From Syntrophomonadaceae bacterium (GTDB taxonomy: Bacteria; Bacillota; Dethiobacteria; DTU022): 34,228 bases of DNA. Below are positions 3,704-22,895 of this stretch, piece by piece (within the stretch, counting starts at the first letter, position 1; each line of letters begins with the position of its first letter). The DNA lies in assembly GCA_007119965.1 (NCBI GenBank), contig SKOR01000046.1:1-34228 (forward strand), written 5' to 3'. The notes under the pieces are model-generated. The model saw only the letters and a list, made by a program, of their open reading frames with translations. It did no database searches and was not told the DNA's origin. Made by a program: the position numbers and the translations under genes.

Positions 3704-3773
3704 GAGAAAATTAAGGTTCGCGGTTTGAATAATCAAGGTTTTAGTTTCAGTATAAAAAAATAATCAGAAGCCG

Positions 3774-3805
3774 CCCGGTCTTTTAAAAAGATCGGGTATT
3801 TTTAT
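3774..3805 (+). terminator. Rho-independent terminator after the corrinoid protein operon
   Basis: CCCGGTCTTTT pairs with AAAAGATCGGG with one G-T wobble, followed by TATTTTTAT. The position is right for ending the methyltransferase operon. Confidence 0.8.
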
Positions 3806-4010: not shown

Positions 4011-4026
4011 TGGCACGATTTTTGCT
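4011..4026 (+). promoter_or_regulatory. Sigma-54 (RpoN) promoter, -24/-12 elements
   Basis: TGGCAC, five bases, then TTGCT matches the sigma-54 consensus (TGGCAC-N5-TTGCW) at every defined position. It lies about 150 bases before the acyl-CoA dehydrogenase start, in a region with no other gene. Sigma-54 promoters need an ATP-driven enhancer-binding activator; none is encoded in this window. Confidence 0.88.
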
Positions 4027-4176: not shown

Positions 4177-5319
4177 ATGGATTTCAAGTTTAACGAAGAC
4201 CAGGAAATGCTAAGCAAGGCGGCTCGATCATTTGCAGATGAATTTTTAGCCGAGTATGTTGAGGGTATTGAAGAAAATGACGAGATGCCCAGAGAGGTTA
4301 TTGAAGAAGCGGCTGCCAGGGACTTTATGGCAGTTACAATACCTGAAGAATATGATGGCCTTGGAATGGGCCATCTGGCAAGAATTATTCTCCTCGAAGA
4401 AATCAGCAGGGTATCTGCTGCCCTGGGTATGCTGCTGCAGGTCTGGCACCTTGGTATTCATCCCATAGTACGCTTTGGCAGTGAAGAGCAAAAACAAAAA
4501 TATTTGCCCCGCATGGCCGCCGGGGAACTGCTGGCCGGACTGGCTGTTACTGAATCCACTGGCGGATCAGACCCCACTGCGGTTCAAACGGAAGCTGTAA
4601 AAGACGGTGATGATTATATCTTGAATGGCCGTAAAGTTTACATTACCAGCTCTCATCTTTCCAAGGTCGTCGGGGTGATGGCCAGGATGGCTGATGACCC
4701 AAAATCATTTACTATATTCCTGCTTGACGAAGATTGCCCCGGCTGGAGAGCAGGCAGGCAGGAGAAGAAAATCGGCTTTAAGGGTAGCAACACGGGAGAC
4801 TTAATTATGGAAGATTGCCGTGTTCCGGCAGCCAATATTATCGGTAAAATCGGGGATGGCCTTAAAATCGGCCTGAACAGCATCGGTGAAGTAGGCCGTG
4901 CCGGCATGGCCGCTGTGAGCCTGGGTATTTTGGCAGCTTCACTTGAAGATGCTGTTAAGTTTTCAAACTCCCGGGTCCTTGGCGGAAAAGCGATCAACAA
5001 AAACCAGGCGATCCAGATTAAACTTGCCGATATGTACATGGATCTGGAGATGAGCCGGCTTTTAGCTTATAAAGCTGCAACCCTGGGCGATGAAGGCCAG
5101 CGCTGCGACACGGAAATGGCCATGGCCAAGTATTATTCTTCGGAAGCATCGGTGCGAAGCGCTAAGGCGGCCTGCGATATCCACGGCGGCCTCGGTTACA
5201 TGATGGAGACACCGACCCAGCGCTACCTGAGGGACGCACTACTGGTCATTTCATCTGCAGGGACCACCGAGATTCAGCAGATTATTGTCAGTAAAGCAGC
5301 AATTAAGAAATACAGTTAG
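4177..5319 (+). CDS. Acyl-CoA dehydrogenase family flavoprotein, atypical active site
   Basis: The 380-residue protein has the normal acyl-CoA dehydrogenase length and landmarks: FGSEEQKQKYLP (100-111), the flavin-binding VTESTGGSD (124-132), and the C-terminal HGGLGYMMETPTQRYLRD (336-353). It should oxidise an acyl-CoA and pass electrons to the EtfAB encoded next. The usual catalytic Glu of the C-terminal EGT motif is Ala361 (SSAGTTEI). The alternative Glu position used by isovaleryl- and long-chain enzymes aligns with Gly240 by my alignment, although Glu238 is two residues away. The catalytic base is therefore unclear and the substrate may not be a simple straight-chain acyl-CoA. AAGGAGG is well placed before ATG 4177. 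It is the first gene of the sigma-54 operon, with EtfB 30 bases downstream. Confidence 0.9.
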   Translation: MDFKFNEDQEMLSKAARSFADEFLAEYVEGIEENDEMPREVIEEAAARDFMAVTIPEEYDGLGMGHLARIILLEEISRVSAALGMLLQVWHLGIHPIVRFGSEEQKQKYLPRMAAGELLAGLAVTESTGGSDPTAVQTEAVKDGDDYILNGRKVYITSSHLSKVVGVMARMADDPKSFTIFLLDEDCPGWRAGRQEKKIGFKGSNTGDLIMEDCRVPAANIIGKIGDGLKIGLNSIGEVGRAGMAAVSLGILAASLEDAVKFSNSRVLGGKAINKNQAIQIKLADMYMDLEMSRLLAYKAATLGDEGQRCDTEMAMAKYYSSEASVRSAKAACDIHGGLGYMMETPTQRYLRDALLVISSAGTTEIQQIIVSKAAIKKYS

Positions 5320-5349
5320 TTATAATTCTTAAAAATGATGGAGGACTTT

Positions 5350-6150
5350 ATGGAAATCGTTGTATGCATAAAGCAGGTTCCAGACCCCGGGCATATTCAA
5401 CTGGATCCTAAAACGGGAACGATCATCCGCGGAGGCGTTCCTGCAATAATCAATACAGTTGATAAAAATGCTCTTGAAGCAGCCCTTCAGCTCAGAAAAA
5501 TTAATGGAGGCAGGGTAACGGTAGTCAGTATGGGCCCGCCGTCTACGGTTGAAGCTCTGCAGGAAGCCCTGGCACTGGGGGCCGATCGGGCTGCCCTGGC
5601 CAGTGATCGCGCTTTTGCCGGGGCTGATACTTTGGCCACTTCTGTAACCCTGGCCGCTTTAATTAACAAAACCGGCCCATTTGACCTGGTGCTTTGTGGT
5701 TACTCATCTCTGGACGGGGGTACTGCCCAGGTAGGCCCCCAGACAGCGGCCATCCTGGAAGTGCCCTTTTTTACCGCTGTGCAAAAAATGGAAAAATCAG
5801 CTGCAGGAATACAGGTCGAAATGGAAACCGAAGAAGGAGTTGTCGCTGCCGAATCTTCACTCCCGGCCCTGGCCACCATCACAAAGGGGATGAACCGTCC
5901 CCGGGGAATCCGCCTTTCGGAGGCGAAGAAAGCTAAAAACAAAGAACTCTTCACTTATGACCTCCAGGGTCTCGGTTTGAGCGATGATCAGGTGGGAGAG
6001 AAAGGTTCAGGTGTATGCATGGTTGAAGTGCTTCCTCTTCCCGCAGGCAGAGATGCAGAGATTATTTCCGGCGAACCGGAAGAAATCGCCGGGAAAATCC
6101 AGGGAGAAATAATGAAGTTGGGCTTGCAGAGCCGGGGGGGAAACAAATGA
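5350..6150 (+). CDS. etfB: Electron transfer flavoprotein beta subunit
   Basis: The 266-residue protein opens with the typical EtfB sequence EIVVCIKQVPD and carries DGGTAQVGPQ (about 121-130) and the adenine/flavin-contact region near KGMNRPRGIR. With EtfA it forms the heterodimer that takes electrons from the adjacent dehydrogenase. I choose ATG 5350 because TGGAGGA (5339-5345) is well spaced before it; an in-frame ATG at 5335 would place that site inside the gene. The stop overlaps the EtfA start (ATGA), a sign of translational coupling. Whether the pair is electron-bifurcating cannot be decided by inspection. Confidence 0.94.
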   Translation: MEIVVCIKQVPDPGHIQLDPKTGTIIRGGVPAIINTVDKNALEAALQLRKINGGRVTVVSMGPPSTVEALQEALALGADRAALASDRAFAGADTLATSVTLAALINKTGPFDLVLCGYSSLDGGTAQVGPQTAAILEVPFFTAVQKMEKSAAGIQVEMETEEGVVAAESSLPALATITKGMNRPRGIRLSEAKKAKNKELFTYDLQGLGLSDDQVGEKGSGVCMVEVLPLPAGRDAEIISGEPEEIAGKIQGEIMKLGLQSRGGNK

Positions 6151-7133
6151 GTAAGAATCGTGAAATATGGGTTGTCGCAGAACAGCGGCAGGGAGAATTA
6201 AAGCGGATCACCCTTGAGCTTTTAGGCAGGGCCCTTTCCCTGGCTGAAGAGAAAGGTTCGCAGGTCGGGGTCCTGCTTATGGGCAAAAGTAACGATAATC
6301 TTTGCCGGGAGCTTGCTCAAAAAGGAGCAGACCGTATTTATAGTATTGAAGGTGACGTCCTGGAGCTCTATAATCCTGAGCTCTACAGCCGGGTAGTTGC
6401 CGGCCTGGCAAAAGAATTTGAACCCGGGGCTATTCTGCTCGGGGCGACCGTGCAGGGCAGTGCCGTATCCTCATCAGTGGCTGCAACCCTGCGCACAGGA
6501 CTTACGGCGCACTGCTGCGATCTGAGTTTTTCAGAGGAAGGGCGCCTGCGCCAGGTAGTACCTTCCCTTGAAGGGTACTACGTATTTGTTTCGCACAGCT
6601 ACCCTGAAATGGCTTCAGTATCCCCCGGGGTTTTCCCCTTACTGCCCCTGGAAGAAGCAGGCAAGGGAGAGGTTGTGAACAGGGAGCTGTCTTCTATTGA
6701 AGGCTGCCTGGAAATCAAGACCTCTGTGCTATCCTTTGAAAAATCGGTAAAAGATGCTGTTTCACTTGAAGATGCCGAGATTATCGTAGCAGGCGGTGCC
6801 GGTGTGGGAAGCGCCGGCTGGTCAATGGTAGAGGATCTGGCAGAAGCCCTGGGAGGGGTGGTGGGGGCAACCCGCCCTGCGGTAGATGAGGGGTGGATTG
6901 GCCATGAACGTTTAATCGGTCAGAGCGGAAAAAATGTAAGCCCCAAACTTTTCGTTGCAGTAGGGGTGTCCGGCGATCCGCTTCATTTGAGCGGTGTAAG
7001 AGAGCCGGAGCTGTTTTTTGCCATCAATAAGAATGAGAAGGCAGCCATTTTTCAATTTGCTGATTACGGTGTAGTGGGAGATTACAGGAAAGTGCTGCCC
7101 CTGTTAATTGAAGCAGCAGTCAACAGCAGGTAA
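6147..7133 (+). CDS. etfA: Electron transfer flavoprotein alpha subunit
   Basis: The 328-residue protein has the EtfA N-terminal domain and a clear C-terminal FAD-binding domain: VAGGAGVGSAGW (near 213-224), GATRPAVDEGW, IGQSGKNVSP, AVGVSGDPLHL and AINKNEKAAIFQFADYGVVGD. The more usual GISGAIQH stretch reads GVSGDPLHL, a mild divergence near the flavin. It overlaps EtfB by four bases and so is translationally coupled. The electron donor is most simply the acyl-CoA dehydrogenase at the head of the operon. No Etf:quinone oxidoreductase or membrane Fe-S partner is encoded in this window, so the final electron acceptor is unknown. Confidence 0.94.
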   Translation: MSKNREIWVVAEQRQGELKRITLELLGRALSLAEEKGSQVGVLLMGKSNDNLCRELAQKGADRIYSIEGDVLELYNPELYSRVVAGLAKEFEPGAILLGATVQGSAVSSSVAATLRTGLTAHCCDLSFSEEGRLRQVVPSLEGYYVFVSHSYPEMASVSPGVFPLLPLEEAGKGEVVNRELSSIEGCLEIKTSVLSFEKSVKDAVSLEDAEIIVAGGAGVGSAGWSMVEDLAEALGGVVGATRPAVDEGWIGHERLIGQSGKNVSPKLFVAVGVSGDPLHLSGVREPELFFAINKNEKAAIFQFADYGVVGDYRKVLPLLIEAAVNSR

Positions 7134-7143
7134 GGATTAGTTT

Positions 7144-7203
7144 ATGAACCCGGATCACTTCAATAATTGGAATCGGTATGAGCAAATAATTCTTAAGGAG
7201 TGA
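7144..7203 (+). CDS. Possible 19-residue peptide between etfA and the HpaB-like gene
   Basis: ATG 7144 follows AAGGA (7132-7136) with good spacing and reads 19 codons to TGA 7201-7203. The stop falls across the ribosome site of the next gene, so translation could be coupled. The peptide is polar with two aromatic pairs (NHFNNW-like composition) and resembles no family I know. It may be chance in a 75-base spacer. Confidence 0.25.
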   Translation: MNPDHFNNWNRYEQIILKE

Positions 7204-7208
7204 ATCAA

Positions 7209-8672
7209 ATGTTAATGAACGGAAAGCAGTATCGCGAGAGCCTGAAGAAAATGCGGCCGAACATCTACAAGTGGGGCAAGCTGATCGAGGATGTCACCAC
7301 TCATCCGGCAACAAGACTGCATGTGGATTCTGTAGCACATTCTTACGATATGTGTTTCGATGAAGAGAAGAAGCATATTTATACAAATAAATCTCACCTG
7401 ACCGGAGAAGTGGTCCATCGCTGGAACGCTCTTTGTCAAACGGTTGAAGATCAGGTGGGCAATGCCGACATGAAAAGGGCCCAGTACCGGGTTTCCGGCA
7501 CCTGCCAGGGGGCAACCTGTGCCGGATGGACGGGATTAAATGTGCTGCATGCCGTAACTTTTGAGATGGACCAGGACCTCGGCACCAATTATCATGAAAG
7601 ACTTCAGAAATATTTCCGTTACGTTGAAGATAACGGGCTGGCCCTGGCCGGGGCGATTACCGACGCAAAAGGCAACCGTTCCATGAAGCCGTCACAGCAG
7701 GAAAATAAAGATTTGAACCTGCACGTTAAAGAAGTGAGGGACGATGGCGTTGTGATCCGCGGCTACAAAATCCAGATTTGCGGTGTTGCAGCTTCACACG
7801 AAATTATAGTGGTTCCCGGGATGGGTTACAAAGAAAGCGAAAAAGATTTTTGCTTTGCTGCCGCTATCCCAAGGGATGCCGAAGGCCTTACCTGCGTGGA
7901 GACCCGGCGACCCAGCGACAACCGTGACGAAGAAGATGGCTGGGATGCTCCCAAGGTCGGCAACATTACCCAGTCATACCTCATCTTTGATGATGTTTTT
8001 GTTCCCAATGACAGGATCTTCATGAATGGCGAATTTAAATATACCGGCAATGTGATCGGCTACTTTGCCGCTATCTACAGGGCAGCGATCGGAGCCTGTG
8101 TGGCAGGTCAGGGTGATGTAATGGCCGGGGCGGCAATCGGTATGGCCAGGGCTAACGGACTGTCACAAAAACCGTTTCAGGAAAAATTAAACCAGATGGC
8201 AATTAACAATGAAATCACCTATGGCCTGGGCCTCGGAGCTATGCTGAAGGGTAAACAGCACCCCTCTAAATTATTCGTGCCAAACCCGCTGCTGGCCCAT
8301 GTTAACAAGACCCAGGTAGGATCGCTGCCTTATACAACCAAGGTGATCGCCCAGGATATCAGCGGTGGTATCGCTGAAACAGGCTGCATGCCATCTTACT
8401 TGGATTTCCAGTCAGAGGAATATGGAAAGCACCTCCTGGAAGCCCTTTCTGCTGGGACAGACGGCGAATCAAGGGCCAGGTTGGCCAGGCTGGTTGAATG
8501 GCTTACTGTGGGCGGCGGGATTCCGGGCTGTATGCACGGTGGCGGCTCGCCGGATGGCGCAAGGTTGGTTGTCAGGGCGTTTACCAGGTGGGAAGATTAC
8601 GTCAATGACGCAATACGGATTGCCGGGGTAAAGGGAGAAATTGCCGAACCTCCAAAACCTGAAAAGAAATAA
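7209..8672 (+). CDS. HpaB / 4-hydroxybutyryl-CoA dehydratase superfamily flavoprotein with divergent active site
   Basis: The 487-residue protein matches the superfamily that holds 4-hydroxybutyryl-CoA dehydratase (AbfD) and the flavin-dependent HpaB hydroxylases. Shared landmarks are DQDLGTNYH (121-129), FDDVFVPNDRIF (260-271), the AxxGACVAGQGDV stretch (292-304) and MHGGGSP (442-448). Against my recollection of Clostridium aminobutyricum AbfD, two cluster cysteines are kept (Cys104, Cys297) and the first is shifted one residue (Cys99). The His ligand aligns with Tyr290, the catalytic Tyr with Ile294, and the two Glu residues with Gln255 and Gly440. An authentic dehydratase/isomerase activity is therefore doubtful, and the chemistry is unassigned. 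The start is ATG 7209 because AAGGAG (7195-7200) precedes it. It is the last gene of the sigma-54 operon. Confidence 0.82.
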   Translation: MLMNGKQYRESLKKMRPNIYKWGKLIEDVTTHPATRLHVDSVAHSYDMCFDEEKKHIYTNKSHLTGEVVHRWNALCQTVEDQVGNADMKRAQYRVSGTCQGATCAGWTGLNVLHAVTFEMDQDLGTNYHERLQKYFRYVEDNGLALAGAITDAKGNRSMKPSQQENKDLNLHVKEVRDDGVVIRGYKIQICGVAASHEIIVVPGMGYKESEKDFCFAAAIPRDAEGLTCVETRRPSDNRDEEDGWDAPKVGNITQSYLIFDDVFVPNDRIFMNGEFKYTGNVIGYFAAIYRAAIGACVAGQGDVMAGAAIGMARANGLSQKPFQEKLNQMAINNEITYGLGLGAMLKGKQHPSKLFVPNPLLAHVNKTQVGSLPYTTKVIAQDISGGIAETGCMPSYLDFQSEEYGKHLLEALSAGTDGESRARLARLVEWLTVGGGIPGCMHGGGSPDGARLVVRAFTRWEDYVNDAIRIAGVKGEIAEPPKPEKK

Positions 8673-8870: not shown

Positions 8871-10181
8871 TTAAAACAGCAGCATCTTTTTGGCGTGATA
8901 AATCAATTCGTCGCGGAAGTCAGGGTGCGTGATGTTGATCAGTTCGTGCGCCCTCTGCCGCATTGTTTTTCCCCTGAGCTGAGCGACCCCGTACTCTGTA
9001 ACGATATAATCGACATCATTTTTATTCGTGGTTACTACGGCTCCTTCCGTCAGCATGGGCTTAATCGTTGATACAGTTCCTGTCTTAAGCTCTGCTGTCG
9101 AATAGGTGGTTAAGATAGCTTTTCCACCCTCAGATTTGTTTGCCCCCCTGATAAAATCGACCTGGCCGCCCGTGCCGCTGATCATGCGGGGACCCACTGA
9201 TTCGGAGCAGACCTGGCCATGCAGGTCGATTTCGATAAATGCATTGATCGAGATCATGTTTTTGTGCCGGGCTATAATATTTACATTGTTGGTATATTCA
9301 ACAGGATAAAATTCTACTCCCGGGTTGTCGTCAAGAAAGTCGTATGTTCTTTTAGTGCCATAAGAAAAAGTGGAAATGGATTTTGCCGTATGAATTGGCT
9401 TGGAAAGGTTGGTTACGGCCCCGCATTCGATCAGGTCAATCATGCTGTCGGTAAACATTTCGCTGTGAATATTGAGGTTATTTCTGTCTTTCAGGCATTG
9501 CGCGACCGCATTGGGAACCGCTCCAATGCCGAGCTGAATGGTTGCCCCATCGGGGATTAAATCAATAATATGGTGGCTTATGCTTTTGGCCCGCTCGTCG
9601 ATGGGGGCAATTTTTAGTTCCGGTAGAGGTTCGTGGCATTCACAGAGGGCATCTATTTCTGAGATGTGAATGTTGCTTTCTCCATGCACCCTGGGCTGGT
9701 TTTCATTTACCTCCACGAATACTTTCTTAGCTCTTGACATCTGCCCTCTCGCTCCGCCGACTGCGGGGCCGAACGAAAAGTAGCCGTGTTTGTCCATGGG
9801 CGAAACCACGGCATAGAATATATCAGCCTCGATATAATTTCTCCAGATCAACCCTTCGTCACTGTAATAAGTATGAATCTGGTCTGCGATGCCTTTGGCA
9901 ATTGCTTTTCTGGCTAAAGGGCTGGAAAAATAAGATACATGCTCAAACTTTCCCTTAAAAGCATCTTTTAAAAAAGCATGGTCCGGCCGGCCCGTCAGGA
10001 GCAGGTGATGAGTGATGCCTTCGAGGTCTTCTTTTATAACCCGCTCTGCGATAGCTTTTACAGTTGCATAGGGCTCACCCACTATGCAGGTTGATGCGCA
10101 TTTGTCATGTGATTTAACGTGCGTTGCAATTTCTTCGGGTGTGGTTAATTTTTCCCTGTAAATTTCTTTCCACTTATTCAT
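8871..10181 (-). CDS. Acetyl-CoA hydrolase/CoA-transferase family 2 (4-hydroxybutyrate or butyrate CoA-transferase-like)
   Basis: The 436-residue protein matches the AbfT/Cat family of CoA-transferases in length and motifs. IHSEMFTDS places the catalytic, thioester-forming Glu at residue 241, GIGAVPNAV (218-226) forms part of the CoA site, and a GGQVDFIRGA block lies in the C-terminal half. Such enzymes move CoA from acetyl-CoA or another donor onto a carboxylic acid. AGGAGGTT precedes ATG 10181. The gene converges on the acyl-CoA dehydrogenase operon, and a candidate sigma-54 promoter lies about 280 bases upstream. I infer that it activates the acid which that operon then processes. Which acid is not readable from the sequence: AbfT, butyryl-CoA:acetate and succinyl-CoA:acetate transferases are hard to separate by eye. 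Confidence 0.9.
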   Translation of the reverse strand: MNKWKEIYREKLTTPEEIATHVKSHDKCASTCIVGEPYATVKAIAERVIKEDLEGITHHLLLTGRPDHAFLKDAFKGKFEHVSYFSSPLARKAIAKGIADQIHTYYSDEGLIWRNYIEADIFYAVVSPMDKHGYFSFGPAVGGARGQMSRAKKVFVEVNENQPRVHGESNIHISEIDALCECHEPLPELKIAPIDERAKSISHHIIDLIPDGATIQLGIGAVPNAVAQCLKDRNNLNIHSEMFTDSMIDLIECGAVTNLSKPIHTAKSISTFSYGTKRTYDFLDDNPGVEFYPVEYTNNVNIIARHKNMISINAFIEIDLHGQVCSESVGPRMISGTGGQVDFIRGANKSEGGKAILTTYSTAELKTGTVSTIKPMLTEGAVVTTNKNDVDYIVTEYGVAQLRGKTMRQRAHELINITHPDFRDELIYHAKKMLLF

Positions 10182-10460: not shown

Positions 10461-10476
10461 TGCAATTACTATGCCA
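10461..10476 (-). promoter_or_regulatory. Candidate sigma-54 promoter for the CoA-transferase
   Basis: On the minus strand the sequence reads TGGCAT, AGTAA, TTGCA. This matches the -24/-12 pattern with only the last base of the -24 hexamer differing from TGGCAC. It lies about 280 bases upstream of the CoA-transferase start and points towards it. The long leader lowers confidence a little; a second sigma-54 site serving a functionally matched gene raises it. Confidence 0.65.
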
Positions 10477-22720: not shown

Positions 22721-22850
22721 GAGGGAAAGTGTGCCTAGGGTTCCGCCGGACTTATGCTGTATGCTCCGGGCTGGTCCGAGTGGCACAGGCATCCATAAGG
22801 GTGAAAACGGTTTCCATGGGTGTCACACCGGAGGGATAAAAGCCCAGGCG
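22721..22850 (+). ncRNA. ykkC-class riboswitch aptamer, probably PRPP-sensing
   Basis: The conserved ykkC blocks are present in order: CTAGGGTTCCG (22735-22745), CTGGTCCGAG (22771-22780) and GGAGGGATAAAAGCCC (22830-22845). ykkC subtypes bind guanidine, ppGpp or PRPP. The setting, ahead of a purine permease and the de novo purine genes, points to PRPP, but the subtype call rests on context rather than on diagnostic bases. A guanidine-I switch would be expected near exporters or urea-carboxylase genes, which are absent. Confidence 0.85.
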
Positions 22851-22895
22851 GGTAGGTTTCGCTCGATACCTATCTGTTGTGGGCTTATTTTATTC
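22841..22895 (+). terminator. Riboswitch expression-platform terminator
   Basis: AGCCCA (22841-22846) can pair with TGGGCT (22880-22885), with an inner GTAGGT/ACCTAT stem, followed by TATTTTATT. AGCCC is also the closing strand of the aptamer's GGG-ATAAAA-GCCC helix. Ligand binding should therefore prevent termination (an ON switch). Confidence 0.7.

Follow-up and report, generated by a model that had tools for sequence, protein, structure and literature searches.

The DNA analysed here (hereafter the window) is a stretch of 34,228 nucleotides from a Syntrophomonadaceae bacterium. Four genes follow one another on its forward strand: they encode an acyl-CoA dehydrogenase (ACAD)-like protein that lacks the catalytic Glu (ACADx, 4177–5319), the ETF beta subunit EtfB (5335–6150), the ETF alpha subunit EtfA (6147–7133) and a 487-residue protein resembling 4-hydroxybutyryl-CoA dehydratase (4HBD), which we call HBDx (7209–8672). 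A gene of the 4-hydroxybutyrate/butyrate CoA-transferase family (8871–10181, reverse strand) converges on them from the right. The HBDx reading frame is intact, and the start chosen by an earlier, sequence-only reading is right, since the ATG at 7209 is preceded by AAGGAG; a longer frame opens with GTG at 7200.

HBDx belongs to the AbfD/HpaB superfamily: both Pfam domains were found, HpaB_N (2.9e-72; 243.9 bits for a gathering score of 35) and HpaB (2.7e-34; 118.5 bits for a gathering score of 25), while no NCBIfam model matched at its cut-off, TIGR02309 and TIGR02310 scoring far below theirs. The best relative of solved structure was AbfD of Clostridium aminobutyricum (1u8v, E = 1.8e-80; identity 33–41%), with the Nitrosopumilus 4HBD (6vjr) also close. 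An AlphaFold2 model built from 58 sequences (mean pLDDT 93.5) matched 1u8v over the whole chain with a TM score of 0.93 and an rmsd of 1.7, whereas comparison with HpaB-type flavin monooxygenases (2yyg and others), which share the superfamily fold, gave TM scores of 0.7–0.84. With AbfD and 6vjr, HBDx has in common the fold, the length, the FAD-contact stretch TDxKG[DN]R, R90, three cluster cysteines and the CoA-ester context. By contrast, the HpaB relatives in our alignment lack the cysteine set (Cys99, Cys104 and Cys297) by which HBDx had been set apart from plain HpaB, and HBDx is found in anaerobes beside CoA-ester genes.

The active site of HBDx differs from that of AbfD in the known catalytic residues. 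Using the numbering of the 1u8v sequence itself and a computed alignment, we compared HBDx with the [4Fe-4S] ligands of AbfD (C99-x3-C103, H292 and C299) and with its catalytic residues (E257, Y296, K300 and E455). The three cysteines are kept, but the first two form a C-x4-C pair (C99 to C104, codons at 7503–7520 of the forward strand, like those that follow; invariant in 39 clade sequences) owing to the insertion of G101, and the histidine is replaced by tyrosine. The catalytic residues become Q, I, V and G, respectively: Q255 (7971–7973) is Gln in 95% of the clade, for Glu in 100% of 37 canonical sequences; the segment Y290-RAA-I294-GA-C297-V298 (8076–8102) aligns with H292/Y296/C299/K300; and G440-C441 (8526–8531) aligns with E455-S456. 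C393 (8385–8387), which lies in a two-residue insertion, is invariant in the clade and absent from canonical 4HBD. The sequence-only reading, whose alignment had not been computed, had listed E257 to Q255, H292 to Y290, Y296 to I294, E455 to G440, C299 as C297 and the shifted first cluster Cys, all of which recur in the computed alignment; it had missed K300 to V298, Q189 to I190, the inserted Gly392-Cys393 and S456 to C441. In none of the clade sequences examined did a proper alignment bring the His, the Tyr and the two Glu back into register.

These replacements are nearly fixed in 44 clade sequences, as E257, Y296 and K300 are fixed in the 37 canonical ones, and T190 of AbfD is C or A in the clade. 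New residues (Q255, Y290, Q301, N333, H351, C393, C441 and D449) are equally conserved. The statement that HBDx has lost the catalytic residues therefore holds for the AbfD set, but "replaced" is the better word. Indeed, the fixed substitutions, the G392-C393 insertion, C441 and the new conserved residues point to an active site that was rebuilt and not merely stripped. Additional small branches within the 4HBD family (L034, L035, L040, L072, L073, L080 and L081) have other active-site sets, for example GTCNYRC (His kept, Tyr296 as Cys) or C-x4-C with the His as Gln; two other family members (L095_2 and L096_99) have no cluster cysteine, yet their fourth-ligand helix retains its His and Lys.

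The 44 homologues, from Bacillota, Thermodesulfobacteriota and Thermoplasmatota, share nearly the same residue set and form one clade (SH-aLRT support 100 and a long stem of 0.82, by a quick tree method). Thus a separate clade devoid of the Glu/His/Tyr set, named beforehand as the supporting outcome, was recovered. 1u8v and 6vjr fall in another group, so that HBDx is not placed with the characterised 4HBDs, and it stands outside the HpaB-type monooxygenases, the HpaB relatives forming a distant branch. HBDx thus represents a large, unnamed branch of this flavin/Fe-S family in fermenting bacteria and archaea, of which we found no description in the literature covered (most subscription journals lie outside that coverage). 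In 398 genomes of the phylum, the matches fell into two groups, one with 47–83% identity (502–951 bits) and one with at most 39% (at most 321 bits), for a self-score of 1137 bits; HBDx is present in 12 of these genomes. The branch also occurs in one Syntrophaceae MAG and in about 41 of 194 Thermoplasmatota genomes (partial copies counted), in several of which it is the sole family member found. In the window's own genus, HBDx was found in this genome alone out of seven (several of the others being incomplete), which suggests a gain by transfer. The same genome encodes a separate canonical AbfD (contig C93) that is 65% identical to 1u8v and has an intact catalytic set. A third family member (G000:C116:39508-40530, locus L013) is visible for residues 149–476 only, as it reaches a contig end. 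As judged from dN/dS ratios of 0.03–0.14 in close pairs with measurable dS, the HBDx clade is under purifying selection.

We then compared the genes within 8 kb of HBDx at 40 loci with those at 21 canonical 4HBD loci, treated alike. An ETF pair was present at 24 of the HBDx loci versus one canonical locus (p = 2e-5; the Fisher tests used here ignore phylogeny, and the neighbour evidence comes mostly from related genomes that are not independent). The 16 HBDx loci with no ETF within 8 kb are partly explained by contig ends. An ACAD was nearby at 23/40 versus 5/21 loci, and a CoA-activating enzyme lay near HBDx at 25/40. HBDx therefore differs from AbfD and 6vjr in its neighbours (ETF, ACAD and other CoA-activating genes) as well as in its residues, and the branch is linked to the metabolism of acyl-CoA.

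Four kinds of CoA-activating enzyme adjoin HBDx across the loci. Relatives of the window's 4-hydroxybutyrate/butyrate-type transferase immediately precede HBDx in L001, L010 and L131; a Pct/YdiF-type transferase is found beside it in L005, L006 and L132–L134; and a ligase that is as close to PaaK as to 2-hydroxyisobutyryl-CoA synthetase in L043, L045, L048, L135, L146 and L147. In Thermoplasmatota the order is ACAD-ligase (MbcS-like)-etfB-etfA-DUF6125-HBDx, with divergent methylmalonyl-CoA mutase genes. Deducing a single substrate from enzymes of four types fails; since the activating enzymes differ among loci, the substrates of HBDx may differ too. Some of the loci where a CoA-transferase neighbours HBDx (L001, L010, L131, L005 and L132) also contain genes for 3-hydroxyacyl-CoA dehydrogenase, crotonase, thiolase and an Fe-S oxidoreductase. 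The L005-type loci resemble the acrylate pathway (Pct, lactoyl-CoA dehydratase, AcrC-EtfBA) in having a Pct/YdiF-like transferase, an AcrC-like ACAD (513 bits for a cut-off of 640) and EtfBA, but HBDx stands where the dehydratase gene would be; the genes examined did not include one for a 2-hydroxyacyl-CoA dehydratase. Note that the DUF6125 protein, which has conserved cysteines, directly precedes HBDx at L138:8321-8863 and ten other Thermoplasmatota loci. In addition, a membrane protein family of about 456 residues with no clear Pfam match (L010:11719-13089, L045:10513-11889 and L043:14026-15042), possibly an acid transporter, shares sigma-54 units with the PaaK-like ligase and HBDx.

The ACAD encoded in the window is not a classical one: ISSAGT replaces the IYEGT that bears the catalytic Glu (YEGT to SAGT), and a Gly presumably occupies the alternative Glu place of isovaleryl-CoA dehydrogenase, as judged by comparison with that enzyme's sequence. 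SAGT, SGGT or AGGT stands for YEGT in this protein and at five other loci (L043, L048, L050, L051 and L147). These base-less ACADs form a clade of their own (FastTree support 1.0), and the EtfA and EtfB proteins of the ACADx loci also cluster together, while ordinary ACADs that keep the Glu are found at other HBDx loci. In the HBDx tree, L010 and L001 are the sequences that group with the window protein, while L147 and L043 stand apart from it. It thus seems that HBDx and ACADx-ETF came together on more than one occasion. A profile of ACADx picked out 10 of the 398 genomes with a clear score gap (at least 599 versus at most 444 bits), seven of which are among the 12 HBDx carriers (p = 3e-10; the search scored the best few candidates per genome, so that the counts are lower bounds). 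G111 and G387 carry HBDx and ACADx on separate contigs. ACADx loci without HBDx gave mixed hints, a biotin-dependent Na+ decarboxylase (L194) and amino-acid genes (L190), and no pathway could be read from them. The arrangement at L194:7500-14836, where ACADx-EtfBA lies beside a biotin-dependent Na+-translocating decarboxylase set, is nonetheless a lead to the ACADx substrate.

Two sigma-54 (-24/-12) promoter-like sites are found in the window: TGGCACGATTTTTGCT (4011–4026, forward strand) upstream of ACADx-etfBA-HBDx and TGGCATAGTAATTGCA (10461–10476, reverse strand) upstream of the CoA-transferase gene; the genome encodes RpoN. These are the only exact matches to TGGCNYNNNNNTTGCW in the window, for 0.59 expected. 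As 13 of 100 shuffled sequences also reach two, the placement of the sites weighs more than their count, and it ties the CoA-transferase to the ACADx-etfBA-HBDx operon. Sigma-54 sites precede HBDx units at 13 of 31 bacterial loci; such units mostly begin with a CoA-activating gene or a transporter gene, and transporter genes share them with HBDx. Sigma-54 control is not specific to the HBDx branch, since canonical 4HBD loci also have such sites (5/20, p = 0.25), in line with a habit of the 4HBD family (PMC12316311).

The genes further upstream belong to a different unit. A terminator-like hairpin (3773–3797, forward strand) separates the mttB-mtxC operon from the ACADx unit, and an mttB gene is near HBDx at only one of the 40 loci. 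The mttB-PocR-corrinoid genes have no counterpart at the other HBDx loci. We therefore rejected the idea that HBDx works with them in methylotrophy or in TMA metabolism, and regard the neighbouring mttB operon as unrelated to it. The product of the gene at 290–1768 is an MttB-family methyltransferase whose score exceeds the cut-off of the NCBIfam model for pyrrolysine-type TMA methyltransferase, with an Rfam PYLIS_3 match at 1277–1376; at the position of the unusual residue of 7xcl it carries an ordinary Met, and it is likely a non-pyrrolysine member. Elsewhere in the window, a Guanidine-I (ykkC) riboswitch match (22724–22852; 63.2 for a gathering score of 63) lies upstream of a purine-type permease gene and pur genes, and this element, instead of sensing guanidine, may be one of the variants for PRPP or ppGpp.

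What might HBDx do? The suggestion that it belongs to a branch of its own, with another CoA-ester reaction or a changed Fe-S site, is borne out, as far as sequence goes, by the fully supported clade, the fixed replacements, the three cysteines and a genomic setting unlike that of canonical AbfD; HBDx thus probably catalyses a CoA-ester reaction different from that of AbfD. The three cysteines, the FAD-contact residues, the CoA-ester neighbours and the strong constraint argue for an active enzyme with FAD, probably a [4Fe-4S] cluster and a rebuilt active site. The cluster, assumed from the three cysteines, would have C99, C104 and C297 as ligands and, at the place of the former His, either a Tyr or an open site. 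In AbfD, Y296, deprotonated by E455, has reportedly been proposed to reduce FAD, and E257 to act as a proton donor via T190; the E257Q variant reportedly has no measurable activity and Y296F less than 1%. Since the whole relay is missing in HBDx, the 4HBD radical is not expected to form in the same way.

Our leading reading, which we put forward tentatively, is that HBDx is a redox-neutral CoA-ester lyase or isomerase that works without the AbfD tyrosine/glutamate radical relay (Y296-E455, T190-E257) and feeds an ACAD-ETF system in short-chain acid catabolism. The clade, its fixed substitutions, the fold and the gene linkage to CoA activation, ACAD, ETF and sigma-54 control are what we observed; the cluster, the substrate, the reaction and its direction are inferred. 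A short-chain carboxylate would be imported, and the CoA-transferase or ligase encoded nearby would convert it to its CoA ester. HBDx would then catalyse a redox-neutral elimination or isomerisation of this ester, giving or using an alpha,beta-unsaturated acyl-CoA that the neighbouring ACAD and ETF would handle, and the product would pass into beta-oxidation.

The main rival to this lyase/isomerase reading is a direct ETF-linked redox role, in which the FAD and the cluster of HBDx pass electrons between the acyl-CoA and EtfAB while ACADx does the redox-neutral chemistry. The ETF is indeed the sharpest difference from canonical 4HBD loci, HBDx lies 67 bp from etfA, and ordinary dehydrogenation by an ACADx without its catalytic Glu is doubtful in the window. 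However, nearly all ETF loci have an ACAD, mostly Glu-bearing (L005, L044, L131, L132 and the archaea), which accounts for the ETF, and we consider this role rather unlikely. Less probable still is that HBDx remains a 4-hydroxybutyryl-CoA dehydratase or a vinylacetyl-CoA isomerase that uses other residues: against the shared fold, the identity to AbfD, the kept TDxKG[DN]R and the 4-hydroxybutyrate CoA-transferase-like neighbour stand the replacement of H292, Y296, E257, K300 and E455 throughout the clade, the presence of an intact canonical AbfD in the same genome, and CoA-activating neighbours that are mostly of other kinds.

We also hold it improbable that HBDx releases the amine of a betainyl- or aminoacyl-CoA by elimination, with a good leaving group making up for the lost AbfD acid residues. 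Such a reaction would be analogous to that of the gamma-butyrobetainyl-CoA TMA lyase BbuA. This lyase belongs to the broad ACAD superfamily of flavoenzymes and shares about 10% identity with 4HBD; the C4 elimination that it catalyses is analogous to that of AbfD (PMC8364193). The loss of acid/base residues would fit, and an mttB-like gene lies 5.4 kb upstream of HBDx. HBDx is nevertheless of the HpaB type and not of the ACAD type, the mttB gene is a rare neighbour beyond a terminator, and the partners differ: class III CoA-transferases and a betaine transporter for BbuA, but other CoA-transferase families and transporters of MFS, unknown or amino-acid types for HBDx, no betaine transporter being seen among the HBDx neighbours scanned. 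Finally, despite the absence of the known catalytic residues, a catalytically dead duplicate is most improbable, and decay of a duplicated 4HBD is ruled out, given the fixed alternative residues, the three retained Cys, the invariant C393, the low dN/dS, the spread over two domains of life and the Thermoplasmatota genomes in which no other family member was found.

HBDx and its base-less partner ACADx might make up a two-flavoenzyme pathway not yet described, with a Tyr-for-His Fe-S flavoenzyme and ETF serving a CoA-ester reaction new to anaerobic metabolism, the HBDx part being common to Clostridia-like bacteria and Thermoplasmatota archaea; we offer this as a possibility on the doubtful side. 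4HBD is a textbook flavin/Fe-S radical enzyme in which the roles of the residues were worked out by single mutations. In the HBDx branch, which present annotation would label 4HBD or 4-hydroxyphenylacetate hydroxylase, evolution has combined those very changes, and the protein persists in two domains of life. The branch is thus a natural test of which residues serve the cluster, the radical and the leaving group, and it marks an uncharacterised short-chain acid route in sediment archaea and fermenting bacteria.
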